Shown: piece after piece, positions 12,485 through 50,228 of the stretch
Numbering within the stretch: the first letter of the stretch is position 1
How the letters are laid out: each line of letters begins with the position of its first letter
Source: an uncultured Pelagibacteraceae bacterium
GTDB taxonomy: Bacteria; Pseudomonadota; Alphaproteobacteria; Pelagibacterales; Pelagibacteraceae
Length of the DNA: 64,000 nucleotides
Direction of reading: 5' to 3'
Assembly (NCBI GenBank): GCA_902587515.1
Contig: CACILM010000004.1
Location: 57,501 to 121,500 of the forward strand
Position numbers and translations under genes: made by a program
Notes under the pieces: generated by a model
Told to the model about the DNA's origin: nothing
Databases searched by the model: none
Seen by the model: the letters and a program-made list of their open reading frames with translations, nothing else

Positions 12485-13882
12485 TTATATTTTCTTAAAG
12501 GCATTTAATGCTTTTAATCTTGCATTTTCATGAATTACAATAGGGTATGGATAATCTAAACCTAAATTTAAAATATTCTTATCTTTTAATTCCCAGGGTT
12601 TATGTATAAATTTTTTTGGTACTTTTTTTAATTCAGGCACCCATTTTTTTACATAGTCACCTTCTCTATCAAATTTTTCACCTTGTAAAATAGGATTAAA
12701 AATTCTGAAATATGGTGCTGCATCAGCCCCCGATCCAGCTACCCATTGCCAACCTGATACGTTGTTAGCTTCATTATAATCTAACAGACAGTTTTTAAAA
12801 TATTTTTCTCCCTCAATCCAATTAATTAATAAATGTTTTACTAAAAAAGATCCCACAATCATTCTTACTCTGTTATGCATCCAGCCAGTAGAATATAACT
12901 CTCTCATACCTGCGTCTACTATAGGGTAACCTGTTAACCCTTTTTTCCACGCAATCAAAAATTTCTGGTTTGTTTCCCAAGGAAACTTATCGAATTTTTT
13001 CGAATAATTACCTTTCAACATATGAGGAAAAAAATTTATTAAAGTATGATTAAATTCCCTCCAACCTATCTCGGTCAAATATTTATTTATTCCTTTTTTT
13101 TTAAATTTAATACATTCTTCCCATATAGTTTCAACATGTATCTGTCCATGTTTTATATAGGGAGATAATTTAGATGTTCCTATTAAATTTGGAAAATTTC
13201 TTGCTTCAGAATAATTTTCAATCTTATCTTTAATAAAATTTTTTAACTCACTATATGCTTTATCTTCACTTGGTGCCCAATATTTTTCAAATTTTTTAGA
13301 CCAGTTATCTTTAGGAAAAATTTCTTTCTCATTAATTATTTTTTTAAAAAATGTTATTTTTTTTTTACATTTGGAAATTTTTTTTTCTATTGATGGGATT
13401 TTATCTAAATAAAATCTCTCTGCATTTCTCCAGTAAGGAGTGAATACTTTAAATGGTGTTCCGTCCCCTTTTTTAATTTCATCGATTTCATTTAAAATAT
13501 TCCCCTTAAATATATTATACTTTACTCCGTTTAATTCAAAATTTTTAAAAAGATATTTGTCGAATTTCAAATAATTTGGTTCGTAGGTTTTATTCCAATA
13601 TATTGAATAATTTTTTATTTTAAAAAGTTTTTCAAAAAAGGATTTATAAGACTCAACCGATATTATTTCTAAATTTATATTATATATTAATAATTTTTTT
13701 TTAAATTCCTCTAAAGATTTTCCTAGCCACCATCTTTGTGATTCTTGGTTTTTAAATTTTTTTTTTTTATATAAGTAAAAAACTACCACTTGATTGTGAT
13801 TTTTTGTTGCCTCTATTAAACCAAAATTTTTTTTAAGCCTAAAATCATCTTTAAGCCAAAATAATCCTATATTTTTACGCAT
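12485..13882 (-). CDS. phrB: Deoxyribodipyrimidine photolyase (cryptochrome/photolyase family)
   Basis: Light-dependent repair of UV-induced pyrimidine dimers; binds FAD plus an antenna chromophore. The N-terminal family start (IGLFWLKDDFRL) and the C-terminal FAD-binding segment are present: IGWREFNHTL, the MHNRVRM motif and the WQWVAGSGADAAPYFRIFNP signature. I prefer the ATG at 13882 (MRKNIGLFW, 465 aa) over the in-frame ATG at 13897. The length is typical of a class I CPD photolyase; a cryptochrome role cannot be excluded. It is convergent with secA. Confidence 0.92.
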   Translation of the reverse strand: MRKNIGLFWLKDDFRLKKNFGLIEATKNHNQVVVFYLYKKKKFKNQESQRWWLGKSLEEFKKKLLIYNINLEIISVESYKSFFEKLFKIKNYSIYWNKTYEPNYLKFDKYLFKNFELNGVKYNIFKGNILNEIDEIKKGDGTPFKVFTPYWRNAERFYLDKIPSIEKKISKCKKKITFFKKIINEKEIFPKDNWSKKFEKYWAPSEDKAYSELKNFIKDKIENYSEARNFPNLIGTSKLSPYIKHGQIHVETIWEECIKFKKKGINKYLTEIGWREFNHTLINFFPHMLKGNYSKKFDKFPWETNQKFLIAWKKGLTGYPIVDAGMRELYSTGWMHNRVRMIVGSFLVKHLLINWIEGEKYFKNCLLDYNEANNVSGWQWVAGSGADAAPYFRIFNPILQGEKFDREGDYVKKWVPELKKVPKKFIHKPWELKDKNILNLGLDYPYPIVIHENARLKALNAFKKI

Positions 13883-13932: not shown

Positions 13933-13993
13933 GGTGGTGGCCTTGGTAAGAATCGCACTTACGACACATACCTTTTCAGGGTACTGCTCTACT
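13933..13993 (-). repeat. Truncated tRNA-Phe copy (att-like repeat, left end of mini-island)
   Basis: These 61 nt are identical to 15957-16017, the 3' part of the intact tRNA-Phe gene from the D-loop through the anticodon and T arms to CCA. The first 16 nt of the tRNA (acceptor 5' strand and D-stem start) are missing: sequence diverges abruptly at 13994. It cannot fold as a tRNA. Its orientation is that of the intact gene, so the two copies are direct repeats bounding 2.0 kb. This is the usual footprint of site-specific integration into a tRNA 3' end. Confidence 0.9.
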
Positions 13994-14091
13994 CTGAAAA
14001 CCGCTCAAACTATATATTTTTTTTTAAAAAATTCATCAAAAAAGACCTCCAACTGAGTCCACAGAGAGTCAGGAATTTAGTATATTAAAAT

Positions 14092-14778
14092 ATGGTTTAT
14101 CTTCTCATAACCCTTTTCATATATTTTGTTCCAACACTTTGGGTGAACTACACATTAGGAAAACATGATGATGAATTACCAAATATGCCTTTCACAGGTT
14201 CAGAGTTTGGCAATCAAGTACTAAAAGAAAAAGATATAACAAACGTTTCTATTCTTGGAGATGATAAAATTGGTGATCACTACGACGTTATTAATAAAAA
14301 AGTAGGAGTTAAATCTGAACGTCTAAATAGAAAGAGTTTAACAAGCATAACAGTTGTTTGTCACGAGATTGGACATGCAATTCAAGATGCAGAAAATTAC
14401 GAACCTTTGAGAAAGAGACACTCTATAATTCAGAAAACTAGATGGATTTCAAAAATTGGAAATTTATTGATGTATATTGGAATACCAGCAATTGTAGCTA
14501 CACAATCTTTTCCATTAATAAGATTATGTATAATCATAATATTAATTGCTACTTTGATAGAGATGTTAACCCATATCGTTACGTTAAATGTTGAGCTTGA
14601 TGCTAGCTTTAATAGAGCTATGCCAATAATTGAGAAAAAAATTCCACAAGAATATCATCAATCTTGTAAATCAATTTTAAGGGTTTGTGCCTTTACTTAC
14701 GTTGTTGCTGCAATGACTAGCTTTTTAAACCTAAGAAATTTGTTATTATGGATAAGATTTATTTTTTTAAGGAGATAA
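14092..14778 (+). CDS. YugP-type membrane zinc metallopeptidase
   Basis: A 228-aa integral-membrane protein of the YugP / neutral zinc peptidase family (Pfam Zn_peptidase_2 by pattern). It has an N-terminal transmembrane helix (about 2-20) and the family's DHYD segment (62-65). The zinc-binding HEIGH is at 91-95, followed by AIQDAENYEPLRKR. One or two central helices (about 125-165), the VELDAS motif (167-172) and a C-terminal AFTYVVAA helix follow. All family hallmarks are intact, so it is probably active; the substrate is unknown. It is the first gene of the mini-island operon. Its last codons contain the AAGGAG that serves the next gene, which begins at the following base. Confidence 0.88.
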   Translation: MVYLLITLFIYFVPTLWVNYTLGKHDDELPNMPFTGSEFGNQVLKEKDITNVSILGDDKIGDHYDVINKKVGVKSERLNRKSLTSITVVCHEIGHAIQDAENYEPLRKRHSIIQKTRWISKIGNLLMYIGIPAIVATQSFPLIRLCIIIILIATLIEMLTHIVTLNVELDASFNRAMPIIEKKIPQEYHQSCKSILRVCAFTYVVAAMTSFLNLRNLLLWIRFIFLRR

Positions 14779-15159
14779 ATGAAAAAACTTTTAGTGTTCA
14801 CGGTTCTGGGTTTGTTATGGAGTGGCAGTGCTTATGCTGAATGCATTGAAGGTGATTGCAAAAACGGTGAAGGAACATACAAATTTCCAGGTGGTGAACA
14901 ATATGCTGGTACATGGAAAAATAATAAAATGCACGGTATGGGTCTTTTGGCGTATCCTGACAGAAGAGTATACATTGGGGAATTTAAAGATAACAAACGC
15001 GATGGAGATGGCATCTCAGCGTTTCCAAATGGAGAAAAATATGTTGGAGCTTTCAAAAATAATAAGCGACACGGTCAAGGCACTTTAACATATGCTGATG
15101 GGAAAATAGACAAAGGCATTTGGAAAGACGGAAAATTAATTAAATTATTAAATGAATAA
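14779..15159 (+). CDS. Secreted MORN-repeat protein
   Basis: A 126-aa protein with a clear signal peptide (residues 1-20, cleavage likely after AYA). About four MORN repeats follow, with the pattern Y-x-G-x-F/W-K-x-N/D-K-x-x-G-x-G (for example around YAGTWKNNKMHGMG and YVGAFKNNKRHGQG). The mature part starts with a possible disulfide pair (ECIEGDC). MORN repeats form extended beta-hairpin solenoids that bind lipids or proteins; in bacteria their roles are mostly undefined. It starts directly after the metallopeptidase stop, with the ribosome-binding site inside that gene, and overlaps the next ORF by 8 bp. Confidence 0.9.
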   Translation: MKKLLVFTVLGLLWSGSAYAECIEGDCKNGEGTYKFPGGEQYAGTWKNNKMHGMGLLAYPDRRVYIGEFKDNKRDGDGISAFPNGEKYVGAFKNNKRHGQGTLTYADGKIDKGIWKDGKLIKLLNE

Positions 15160-15319
15160 ACTTTTTCCATCTACTGGCTGGGGTGTTGTAGTAGTGATTT
15201 TTATAATGTTATTAAAGTCAACCCCAGAGATTGTAAAAACGCTACCAGATTTTTATAAAACACTGCCTCTAAAAGTTCCAAGAGCAATGCATCACGAGGA
15301 TAATAACGATGGAAGATAA
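15152..15319 (+). CDS. Small single-pass membrane protein (55 aa)
   Basis: This short frame begins MNKLFPSTGWG and ends at TAA 15317-15319. It has one hydrophobic segment at about residues 10-21 (WGVVVVIFIMLL) followed by a polar tail ending HHEDNNDGR. It overlaps the MORN gene by 8 bp and the following gene by 11 bp, the same tight coupling as its neighbours. This supports real translation. I do not recognise the family. A membrane or periplasmic partner role for the other island products is only inferred. Confidence 0.65.
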   Translation: MNKLFPSTGWGVVVVIFIMLLKSTPEIVKTLPDFYKTLPLKVPRAMHHEDNNDGR

Positions 15320-15623
15320 AGAAACTCCTGTATTTATAACAAGAACGTTTAGGTGTCCTAATTGCGAGTCTAGAAACTTAAAATGGGAAAAATGGGGATC
15401 AGACCCTGACGTGAAAAAAAAAATTTGGCAGGATATACAATATTCATGCTGTGCGGATTGCCATAAGATAATTCCTAGCAAACTTGCTTATGACCAATAT
15501 ACCTATCCACCATTTAAAGAACGAAAAAGATTATATGAGGAAAAAATTAAAAATTCTGATTATGAACCTGATTGGGATAAAGCTTTTAATAATGAATTGT
15601 TTAAATCTTTAAATGATAAATAG
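15309..15623 (+). CDS. Small zinc-ribbon protein of unknown function
   Basis: A 104-aa soluble, charged protein. Two cysteine pairs, Cys16-x-x-Cys19 (CPNC) and Cys48-x-x-Cys51 (CADC, after another Cys47), are about 28 residues apart and should bind one zinc as a ribbon. The C-terminal half is Tyr/Lys-rich and predicted helical. No signal peptide or membrane segment is present. It overlaps the 55-aa ORF by 11 bp and the next gene by 11 bp. I do not recognise the family; nucleic-acid or protein binding are both possible. Confidence 0.75.
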   Translation: MEDKETPVFITRTFRCPNCESRNLKWEKWGSDPDVKKKIWQDIQYSCCADCHKIIPSKLAYDQYTYPPFKERKRLYEEKIKNSDYEPDWDKAFNNELFKSLNDK

Positions 15624-15885
15624 ACTAAAAAGTTTAATTAATAAATTAAATTTATTTGGATGGCTTAGTGTTTTAGCTTTTTGGTTAATCATAATTTTTA
15701 TTTTTGTTCCTGTTTTTAAGTTTACTGAAAGTTGTGCTGAAGGATCTGGTTGGAAAGGGACATTATTCGGTTGTGCAATTGATTTGGTCGTGTGGTTATT
15801 AGCTTTGGGTATATTAACTTTTGTAGGTGTAATTTTGTACGGATTTATTTTAGTGACTTATGATTGGTTAAAAAGCAAATTTTGA
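15613..15885 (+). CDS. Small two-helix membrane protein
   Basis: A 90-aa protein with two strong hydrophobic segments (about residues 14-34 and 53-80). A short loop between them contains two cysteines (ESCAEGSGW and FGCAID). The N-terminus is amphipathic and basic (MINRLKSLINKLN). It is the last gene of the five-gene island operon and overlaps the zinc-ribbon gene by 11 bp. No family was recognised. Confidence 0.7.
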   Translation: MINRLKSLINKLNLFGWLSVLAFWLIIIFIFVPVFKFTESCAEGSGWKGTLFGCAIDLVVWLLALGILTFVGVILYGFILVTYDWLKSKF

Positions 15886-15958
15886 GGTCACCAACTGAGT
15901 ACTACAGTGGAGCAAAGCTCGGTTGTATTTTTCTACACGTTAAATAATTGTTGTTTGG

Positions 15959-16033
15959 TGGTGGCCTTGGTAAGAATCGCACTTACGACACATACCTTTT
16001 CAGGGTACTGCTCTACTACTGAGCTACAAGGCC
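15959..16033 (-). tRNA. tRNA-Phe (GAA)
   Basis: A 75-nt cloverleaf including an encoded CCA (complement at 15959-15961). The acceptor is GGCCTTG/CAAGGCC, the anticodon loop is CTGAAAA with anticodon GAA, and the T-loop is TTCTTAC-adjacent and slightly unusual. Its first base is the last base of the infA stop codon, so it is probably released from the infA transcript by RNase P. Its 3' 61 nt are repeated at 13933-13993. Confidence 0.93.
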
Positions 16034-16248
16034 TAAAATCTAAAAGTTATTCTTCCTTTAGTTAGATCATATGGCGTCATCTCAACCATCACATTGTCTC
16101 CAGCTAAAACTCTTATTCTATTCTTTCTAAGTTTTCCAGCAGTATGGGCTAAAATCTCATGATTATTTTCTAATTTTACTCTAAACATTGCGTTAGGTAA
16201 TAATTCTGTAACTTTACCTTTAAATTCTAAAGTTTCTTGCTTTGCCAA
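16033..16248 (-). CDS. infA: Translation initiation factor IF-1
   Basis: A 71-aa S1/OB-fold protein that occupies the ribosomal A site during initiation. The family sequence is complete: an [18 protein letters not shown] opening and a C-terminus ending [14 protein letters not shown]. It starts one base upstream of the hisD stop. Its TAG stop shares its final base with the tRNA-Phe 5' end, an extreme degree of packing. Confidence 0.97.
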
Positions 16249-46123: not shown

Positions 46124-46856
46124 ATATTTTACAAATAATTTTGAAATAATTAATTTATATAAAAGACCAACAACAAAATCTGAAGTAGTTACTCAAATGA
46201 TATATGGGGATAGCTTTTCAATTTTCAAAAAAAATAAAAATTGGCTTAGGATAAAAACAAAAGAAGATAATTATAAAGGATATATCAAAAATAAAAAATT
46301 TTCTGATTATATAAAACCAACTCACAAAATACATGTTTTAAGATCTACAATTTATAAATTTCCCAATAAACAAAAAAAAATAAGTGAACTATCTTTTTCA
46401 TCAAAGTTAAGGATTATTGATAAAAAATCAAAGTATTGTAAATTTTCTAAAGGTTGGGTTCATCAAAAAGATTTAAAACCATTATCTTTTAGGCATAAAA
46501 CACCTTTTGAAAAAATAAATATTTTTAAAAATATAAAGTACAAATGGGGTGGAAAATCTTTTAGGGGAATAGACTGTTCTGGTTTAATACAGATATTTCT
46601 GAATTTTAATAATAAGTTTTGTCCTAGAGATGCTAAGGACCAAGTAAAATTTTTTAAAAAAGAAATAAGATTTGAAAATATTAAAAAAAATGACATTATT
46701 TTTTGGAAAGGACATGTTGCGCTAGCAATATCAAAAACAAAACTTATTCATGCATATGGGCCAATGAAAAAAACCATAATAATGGGAATTGATGAAACTA
46801 TTAATAAAATTGAAAAGACAGCTAAACTTAAAGTAATTGGGATTAAAAGGCTATAA
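46116..46856 (+). CDS. NlpC/P60 family peptidase with SH3-like domains
   Basis: A 246-aa protein with two N-terminal SH3b-like regions (about 1-125) and a C-terminal NlpC/P60 domain. The catalytic cysteine is in GIDCSGL and the histidine in KGHVALAISK. No signal peptide is obvious, as in many alphaproteobacterial homologues. It probably cleaves D-Glu/DAP bonds of murein peptides, fitting with the AmpG-like gene it overlaps by 8 bp. Its last codons plus the downstream hairpin are duplicated at 50088-50228. Confidence 0.88.
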   Translation: MIKYFTNNFEIINLYKRPTTKSEVVTQMIYGDSFSIFKKNKNWLRIKTKEDNYKGYIKNKKFSDYIKPTHKIHVLRSTIYKFPNKQKKISELSFSSKLRIIDKKSKYCKFSKGWVHQKDLKPLSFRHKTPFEKINIFKNIKYKWGGKSFRGIDCSGLIQIFLNFNNKFCPRDAKDQVKFFKKEIRFENIKKNDIIFWKGHVALAISKTKLIHAYGPMKKTIIMGIDETINKIEKTAKLKVIGIKRL

Positions 46857-46960
46857 AAGGCAAAGGCAGCTTCAGTCTCCCTCCACTGCCCTTATTTATA
46901 TAATATTTGATTCTTGCAAAAATTATAAGTAACTTTTAGTTGACTGTGGATAATTTGACT
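46818..46960 (+). repeat. NlpC 3' end plus hairpin element, copy 1
   Basis: Covers the last codons of the NlpC gene (TAKLKVIGIKRL-stop) and a following hairpin element, with GGCAG (46865-46869) able to pair with CTGCC (46886-46890). A conserved A+T tail containing TTTTAGTTG and TGTGGATA follows. It is homologous to copy 2 at 50088-50228. The hairpin may also terminate the trkH-ampG-nlpC transcript. Confidence 0.85.
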
Positions 46961-50087: not shown

Positions 50088-50228
50088 ACTGCAAAACTAA
50101 AAGTAGTTGGAATTAAAAGATTATAAATAGCAAAGGCAGCTTCAGTCTCCTTTCGCTGCCCTAAGAAATACTTCAATTGATTTGTTCTTGAGAAATTAGT
50201 CTCTTTTTAGTTGTATGTGGATATTAAG
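50088..50228 (+). repeat. NlpC 3' end plus hairpin element, copy 2
   Basis: Begins with a remnant of 12 codons reading TAKLKVVGIKRL-stop (stop at 50124-50126), which differs from the NlpC C-terminus by one residue. It then has the hairpin GGCAGC...GCTGCC (stem 50135-50140 and 50155-50160) and an A+T-rich tail with TTTTTAGTTG and TGTGGATA. It is homologous to copy 1 at 46818-46960. The gene body of NlpC is absent here, so it is the scar of a duplication or block insertion. Confidence 0.85.

Follow-up and report, generated by a model that had tools for sequence, protein, structure and literature searches.

A family of tRNA-bounded cargo units with conserved non-coding ends in the Pelagibacteraceae

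Introduction

How does a packet of genes come to lie exactly at the 3′ end of a housekeeping tRNA gene when no integrase is recognised within it? The question is raised by a tRNA-Phe locus in 64,000 nucleotides (nt) of DNA from an uncultured Pelagibacteraceae bacterium of the SAR11 group (assembly GCA_902587515.1, contig CACILM010000004.1, positions 57,501 to 121,500; hereafter the window, to which coordinates without a handle refer). Here we describe the locus as one member of a family of small cargo-bearing units, a family that is real, has been mobile in evolutionary time and possesses portable attP-like ends. Each unit is probably a non-autonomous integrative cassette, moved in trans by a tyrosine integrase, and as far as precise insertion at a tRNA gene this mechanism is well supported.

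Results

The tRNA-Phe locus of the window

An original prediction, made from the letters of the window alone, held that about 2 kb of DNA are enclosed by an intact tRNA-Phe gene and a 61-nt copy identical to the 3′ part of that gene. ARAGORN confirms the gene, a minus-strand tRNA-Phe(GAA) at 15959-16033, and a repeat search of the window confirms the copy (13933-13993 versus 15957-16017, 100% identity). The repeat comprises 59 nt of tRNA-Phe and 2 nt past the encoded CCA. With a 20-nt seed, only one other direct-repeat family of at least 30 nt turned up in the whole window, and the 61-mer has two matches in the window's genome (1.05 Mb, 18 contigs). Between the repeats lie five closely packed open reading frames (ORFs), whose strands bear out the predicted contrast of plus-strand genes amid minus-strand core genes (photolyase, infA and hisD). 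A Pfam scan of the five ORFs found no recombinase or phage domain over cut-off, in keeping with the earlier claim that no integrase or phage gene lies inside, and a promoter and terminator scan gave nothing above shuffles. The attL/attR geometry proposed for this tRNA 3′ end is likewise supported, the displaced copy marking the former position of the host's original tRNA 3′ end.

Conserved ends define a family of units

The strongest signal at the locus, absent from the original prediction, is a pair of conserved non-coding ends (Table 1). The first, LEFT, extends for about 90 nt just inside the displaced copy (13 copies), and the second, RIGHT, for 64 nt just ahead of the intact tRNA (11 copies). 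Units of this kind number 15, of which 13 lie at tRNA-Phe and two at tRNA-Met; they were found in 13 Pelagibacteraceae genomes, and G103 has a remnant besides (G handles are species representatives; AG-430-F03 was taken as G222 and AG-916-O22 as G301). All follow the layout [tRNA 3′ copy]-[LEFT]-[cargo]-[RIGHT]-[intact tRNA], and the 11 tRNA-Phe units with both ends measure 865 to 5277 bp, one of them above 4 kb. The single mini-island originally described therefore stands as a locus, while its extent was understated, since the locus belongs to a family.

Among 397 family genomes the RIGHT model matched 13, one of which is the G103 remnant. The LEFT model matched 26, of which the 13 at 32 bits or more were kept, adding G279 to the units known from the RIGHT model; the other 13 (at most 24.8 bits) were dropped, and no tRNA was found in the eight of these that were scanned for tRNAs. 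When the RIGHT model was run on 397 genomes drawn from the whole order, it returned only G000, G222 and the G103 remnant, with no member seen outside the family. A DNA search of the genus at 58 bits or more placed LEFT ends in 9 of 169 genomes; at E ≤ 0.01 the same search reported 127 of 169, the others listed reaching at most 45.5 bits, mostly over the AT-rich part, and these were dropped. A pattern match in Solirubrobacter was taken as chance.

The spacing of the ends is as telling as their sequence. In 15/15 units 71-73 nt separate the core GTACT from the start of the LEFT motif, and this includes both at tRNA-Met, where the intervening sequence is largely unlike that of the others despite the constant spacing; a recombinase complex would be expected to demand just that, a set distance with the sequence left free. 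Where a tRNA-Phe unit possesses a RIGHT end, that end lies against the tRNA or the tRNA copy with a gap of 0-2 nt. In the tRNA-Met units (G292 and G279) LEFT and RIGHT flank tRNA-Met(CAT), and the displaced copy is the tRNA-Met 3′ part; the RIGHT end of G279 is only partly like the rest. Both target tRNAs share ATAC-N8-(G/T)GTACTGCTCTA across the anticodon arm.

Empty and occupied sites in relatives

The tRNA-Phe gene was matched in 112 of 121 genus genomes searched, with extra partial 3′ copies in eight; most searched genomes are incomplete, which makes absences weak. We analysed 94 tRNA-Phe loci and classified 92 of them, G035 and AG-916-O22 having no intact tRNA in reach; the 92 are not the full set, at least G030, G071, G098 and G114 being left out. 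Empty sites number 47, with the gene order secA, photolyase, tRNA-Phe, infA, hisD and the photolyase 44-64 nt from tRNA-Phe (51-55 nt in 42/47). Nine loci are occupied, one of them (AG-430-F03) in another genus, a figure that is not a prevalence, since the locus set includes every carrier known from the tRNA-Phe search. In nine more the photolyase lies farther off, and in 27 there is no photolyase match within the stretch; neither group has a tRNA copy.

At the occupied sites the gap between photolyase and displaced copy, taken in four carriers, is 52 nt in the window, 51 in G008, 52 in G044 and 53 in G165, in line with that between photolyase and tRNA at empty sites, so that the unit sits precisely where the tRNA 3′ end formerly lay. 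The empty sites and alternative cargoes for which the original prediction called are thus present, and the outcome that it named as fatal, the same genes and repeats in all relatives, is not what the relatives show. Chance or an assembly artefact is very unlikely, since independent genomes share the architecture with other cargo.

Further insertions between photolyase and tRNA-Phe in G004, G007, G054, G056, G073, G074, G089 and G110 have no tRNA copy, LEFT or RIGHT, and were rejected as members. Among them, G089 and G056 (L114, L149) and G004 and G073 (L117, L133) carry proteins of 453-460 and 334-336 amino acids (aa), pairwise alike by eye and without repeats or ends, a second kind of variability at this locus.

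Crossover, tandems and remnants

The genus has two T-arm alleles of tRNA-Phe, A and T. In G044 the displaced copy is T and the intact gene A, in G005 the displaced copy is A and the intact gene T, and in AG-916-O22 the first copy is T and the second A; the displaced copy of AG-430-F03 retains only the anticodon-to-D-arm part. These mosaic alleles and the partial copy suggest that in the intact tRNA the 3′ half originates from the element, the crossover probably falling between T arm and D arm (about 15985-16017).

Units also stack. AG-916-O22 has the order copy-LEFT-cargo-RIGHT-copy-LEFT, a tandem, and the same RIGHT-copy-LEFT junction occurs in G035, on a contig with the photolyase split across its two arms, which we therefore take for an inverted amplification chimera; the second unit is incomplete in both. 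A 34-nt LEFT remnant between two cargo modules of G044 (L018:7411-7444) is likely the scar of two fused tandem units and suggests that units can fuse by deletion. In G103 a 40-nt RIGHT remnant (L168, G103:C1:51422-51461) abuts tRNA-Phe with no displaced copy, a decayed unit. As a separate observation, G014 (L173) and G104 (L116) have a T-arm allele unlike that of most near neighbours and no element, possibly the footprint of a past insertion and loss.

Cargo and its exchange between species

Cargo differs widely from unit to unit. G008 carries the type I restriction-modification genes hsdR, hsdM and hsdS, G035 and AG-916-O22 a trypsin-like protease, and G279 a glucose/sorbosone-dehydrogenase-like protein with a thioredoxin, while the remaining units hold mostly unknown proteins. 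The main cargo ORFs have one orientation, opposite to the tRNA and facing away from LEFT, with the exception of one ORF of 182 aa, which belongs to the second of the AG-916-O22 units, itself incomplete. In a scan of seven cargo proteins against PHROGs no known phage function was found; groups of unknown function were matched by the MORN gene and, weakly, by a 456-aa protein.

Several cargo genes are nearly identical between species. At the nucleotide level, the peptidases of the window and G064 are 93.9% identical, a 218-aa cargo gene of G064 and G165 99.7%, a 412-aa gene of G165 and G044 96.0%, and cargo genes 3 and 4 of the window and G044 95.8 and 95.9%. Across genera, the proteases of G035 and AG-916-O22 are 99.1% identical (secA of this pair, 77%) and a 133-aa gene of G060 and G222 96.5%. 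The eighth shared gene compared, a 456/466-aa pair in G060 and G222, reaches only 72.7%, so that not all sharing is recent. For the same carrier pairs, secA, photolyase and hisD, as far as in reach, are 76-80% identical (two comparison rows from a 33-aa SecA fragment of G064 being excluded), and infA is higher, at 82.6-88.7%. On a SecA tree of 75 rows, without the carriers G005, G064 and G076 (no long SecA in the stretch), G292 and G279, the eight carriers need 7 changes against a shuffled mean of 7.7 (122/500 as low), and are thus no more grouped than when shuffled.

Packets of genes have passed between distantly related cells. The original prediction had read the perfect identity of the two repeats as a sign of a recent event, an idea that gains little from it: tRNA-Phe is identical in most of the genus, and identity of the copy dates little. 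Better evidence of recent exchange comes from these comparisons, in which cargo is near-identical between species whose core genes are at 76-80%.

Table 1. Features of the unit and its flanks in the window
Feature	Position	Strand	Basis or remark
Displaced tRNA-Phe 3′ copy, attL-like	13933..13993	-	61/61 identical to 15957-16017
Conserved LEFT end	13994..14085	+	Alignment of 13 copies, mean column identity 88%
LEFT motif CTGAGTCCACAGAGAGTC	14053-14070		72 nt from core GTACT
Cargo gene 1, Zn_peptidase_2 (PF04298) membrane metallopeptidase	14092..14778	+	Pfam E 3e-46
Cargo gene 2, MORN-repeat protein	14779..15159	+	PF02493 E 2.6e-23
Cargo gene 3, 55-aa protein	15152..15319	+	No Pfam match
Cargo gene 4, 104-aa protein with CxxC pairs, zinc-ribbon-like by eye	15309..15623	+	No Pfam match
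Cargo gene 5, 90-aa small membrane protein	15613..15885	+	No Pfam match over cut-off
Conserved RIGHT end, abuts tRNA 3′ end	15895..15958	+	Alignment of 11 copies, mean column identity 94%
RIGHT motif TGAGTACTACAGTGGAGCAAAGCTCGG	15896-15922		
Intact tRNA-Phe(GAA), target gene, attR-like	15959..16033	-	ARAGORN
DNA photolyase, flanking core gene outside element	12485..13882	-	PF03441/PF00875
infA, flanking core gene outside element	16033..16248	-	PF01176

Of the window's own cargo, gene 1 had one match (47% at the amino acid level) in 100 other genomes drawn, gene 2 likely carries a signal peptide, as judged by eye, and gene 4 gave a weak PADLOC match to PD-T7-4 (18.2 bits, E 3.3e-4). Elsewhere in the window, 46818-46937 and 50088-50207 form a 120-nt direct repeat of 73% identity, 3.3 kb apart.

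Search for the enzyme

No recombinase domain was seen in the cargo of the window or in the other cargo proteins scanned, where one copy stood for its near-identical counterparts. A search for PF00589 domains, in which the carrier G279 was not included, found a resident tyrosine recombinase of 304-325 aa, single and chromosomal, in 27/32 genomes searched (18/20 and 9/12), carriers and non-carriers alike. In 9 of the 12 carriers searched it is the sole PF00589 protein; the carriers G035 and G292, both incomplete genomes, gave no match, and where carriers do match, the matches sit on contigs other than those holding units. The resident recombinase (for example L101:2812-3765, G000:C2) has a SAM-like and a catalytic domain and no recognised arm-binding domain, and its scores do not reach the cut-offs for XerC and XerD. 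In 27 aligned loci a conserved palindrome, GATAA-N7-TTATC, is seen by eye immediately ahead of the start codon, which by the same comparison is unlike the tRNA core; a strict pattern matched only 19 loci, the TGATAA form being excluded by the pattern. In two genomes the gene has an ogt-like gene on one side and, on the other, a variable region with glycosyltransferase-like genes (named by eye). Enzyme and palindrome might together constitute a dif system run by one enzyme; a region-specific recombinase is another possibility.

Serine resolvases (PF00239) were found in 0/13 carriers, and neither of two recombinases scanned reaches the NCBIfam integron-integrase cut-off, no attC search having been made. 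Arm-DNA-bind_3 integrases occur in 5/362 genomes, 3 of them over cut-off. Four loci with arm-domain integrases were scanned for tRNAs: three lie near tRNA-Lys, tRNA-Thr and tRNA-Pro, and the fourth has no tRNA in reach. The second integrase of G165, of 465 aa with an arm domain, sits beside tRNA-Pro (L231:4551-6295, G165:C14) and may belong to a prophage. The resident recombinase of G165 is some 3.5 kb away, and its upstream site is present there once whole and once in part. LEFT and RIGHT are absent beside the extra integrases of G043, G034, G010 and G165.

Discussion

Proposed mechanism and its alternatives

We propose that the two non-coding ends would be joined in a circle to form attP, in which a tRNA 3′-half core lies between LEFT and RIGHT arms. 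A tyrosine integrase acting in trans would recombine this site with the anticodon-arm region of tRNA-Phe or tRNA-Met, so that the rebuilt tRNA would contain the element's 3′ half, while that of the host would end up at the far end. The site would stay open to a further unit, giving rise to tandem arrays. The most likely supplier of the integrase would be a mobile element in transit through the cell, such as a phage, and among the sources that remain after our searches an unrecognised element acting in trans is the likeliest. The class and source of the enzyme, like the route of the DNA between cells, we infer.

Several results weigh against this proposal. Excision through a circle is itself an inferred step. 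The distance from RIGHT motif to tRNA end varies, since tRNA-Phe units have 62-63 nt, G292 has about 66 and G279 has 45, and an arm motif shared between LEFT and RIGHT was not found beyond chance (190/1000 shuffles as good), so that a lambda-like arm-site reading draws only on conservation and the LEFT spacing. The allele test is not unanimous either. Four of the five left-flank neighbours of G005 have allele A, and the fifth, G014, has T without an element; of the five of G044 only the two closest have T (2/5), and these form its sister group in the SecA tree, while the next three have A. Neither LEFT nor RIGHT occurs in the five Arm-DNA-bind_3 genomes. In viral contigs 0 matches were obtained with five patterns (the LEFT motif, two for the tRNA-Phe core and two for RIGHT), in a search that had no attP positive control, and a distant search of phage records returned only a Xanthomonas phage tRNA-Phe.

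Two further pattern matches in the viral contigs concern other sequences: a relaxed LEFT pattern matched one contig, G+C-rich by eye and without a tRNA, which we judged to be chance, and the tRNA-Met core pattern matched two, both carrying tRNA-Met genes. The original prediction had pointed to SAR11 podophages that integrate in this way. That link finds no backing here, for no phage gene was recognised, no viral contig or phage record searched had the ends or the tRNA-Phe core, and the arm-domain integrases lie instead near tRNA-Lys, -Thr and -Pro (3/4 loci).

Of the alternatives, the one that survives best has the resident recombinase capture units at tRNA genes much as an integron integrase captures cassettes. 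Its wide distribution, and its standing as sole PF00589 protein in 9/12 carriers, would explain units without an enzyme, and in the two genomes viewed it adjoins a variable region with glycosyltransferase-like genes. We nonetheless consider this unlikely: the protein has a conserved palindromic site of its own, by eye unlike the tRNA core, lacks a recognised arm-binding domain and is equally present in non-carriers, while the incomplete genomes of G292 and G035 have no match.

Improbable, in our view, is general recombination, by which DNA circles would enter through the 59 nt of tRNA homology, or flanks be swapped by transformation, with no site-specific enzyme. There is some precedent in the H47 island, which in the excerpted account has no recombinase and excises between direct repeats independently of RecA and known site-specific recombinases (PMC5426353); what such recombination leaves unexplained are the conserved ends of about 90 and 64 nt, the 71-73 nt spacing and the use of two tRNAs. 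Least probable of all are fossil islands, that is, decayed prophages, satellites or integrative elements that lost their integrase and are now immobile, since although the attL/attR-like geometry, the remnant end in G103 and the cargo gene shared at 72.7% (a sign that some sharing is old) would suit them, no integrase remnant was recognised in the cargo scanned, the arms are kept while cargo turns over, tandem units stack in order, and one cargo gene reaches 99.1% identity across genera whose secA genes stand at 77%.

Relation to known systems

The non-autonomous cassette that we favour is best seen as a variant of the tRNA-targeted additive cassettes already known. As in tRNA-targeted integrative elements there is an intact tRNA, a displaced 3′ fragment and an empty site, but the integrase of its own that marks such elements was not found in the cargo scanned. 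Repeated insertion at one tRNA with differing cargo, the mark of an additive flexible genomic island, is found. Neither Ca. Actinomarinales nor the Methylophilaceae, the hosts of the closest parallels, are Alphaproteobacteria. Cassettes targeted to tRNA genes and bounded by direct repeats are described in the former (PMC7771536) and as fGI-2 in the latter (PMC10872708); in Alteromonas, too, an additive island uses a tRNA as its target (PMC4119200). The Actinomarinales cassettes, like the SAR11 units, also transfer between genera (PMC7771536); as far as the excerpts of the two descriptions go, conserved non-coding ends, fixed spacing, tRNA switching with the same ends and allele mosaics do not feature in them.

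Tycheposons of Prochlorococcus are likewise tRNA-bounded cargo elements of a streamlined ocean bacterium, but in the excerpted description they span 4-200 kb and carry a tyrosine recombinase (PMC10872708), whereas the SAR11 units span 0.9-5.3 kb and none was found in them, which places them outside that class. The H47 island of E. coli resembles the units as a mobile island without its own recombinase between direct repeats, but it is 12.6 kb long with imperfect 146/148 bp repeats, and the excerpt describes no family with conserved ends (PMC5426353). Miniature inverted-repeat transposable elements (MITEs), which a partial source groups with clusters of attC sites lacking integron integrases (CALINs) among hitcher elements, are also non-autonomous and recognised by conserved ends; they are about 300 nt long, gene-less and moved by a transposase, whereas the units carry genes and a tRNA attachment site (PMC11389934). 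Integron cassettes and CALINs share with the units, in the same excerpt, a cargo-only content, mainly one orientation, stacking and an enzyme in trans (PMC11389934). Unlike them, the SAR11 units target a tRNA gene, and their recombination site holds the tRNA 3′ half. A cis-mobilizable element (CIME) has attL and attR, lacks recombination genes and derives from a related integrase-bearing element. The SAR11 units have att-like ends; no integrase-bearing relative was found in our searches with the LEFT and RIGHT models and for arm domains. Phage satellites, such as PICIs and VEIMEs, are marked by genes of phage descent or by reliance on a helper phage for packaging; of the units, the seven cargo proteins compared with PHROGs showed no known phage function.

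In the open-licence literature we found no paper combining Pelagibacter, integrase and tRNA-Phe, which does not show that none is in print. The main text of a SAR11 ecogenomics paper, so far as excerpted, makes no mention of an integrase (PMC7318151), and the streamlined Actinomarinales and Pelagibacterales are described, in a source used in part, as having no identifiable mobile elements and rare prophages (PMC7771536).

Significance

Cassettes with recognisable ends would give SAR11 a route of gene flow, including for restriction-modification systems and proteases, and the end sequences offer a signature by which cassettes can be counted in metagenomes. They raise the question of which enzyme reads the LEFT and RIGHT ends, and whose enzyme it is. 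Although we hold it only tentatively and think it rather doubtful, the units might belong to a dispersed, integron-like capture system, in which a housekeeping tRNA is the platform, enzyme-less cassettes with constant arms and an interchangeable tRNA core circulate among SAR11 species and genera, and a dedicated, unrecognised recombinase does the work. If true, this would amount to a cassette economy without resident mobile elements in some of the most abundant bacteria in the ocean.

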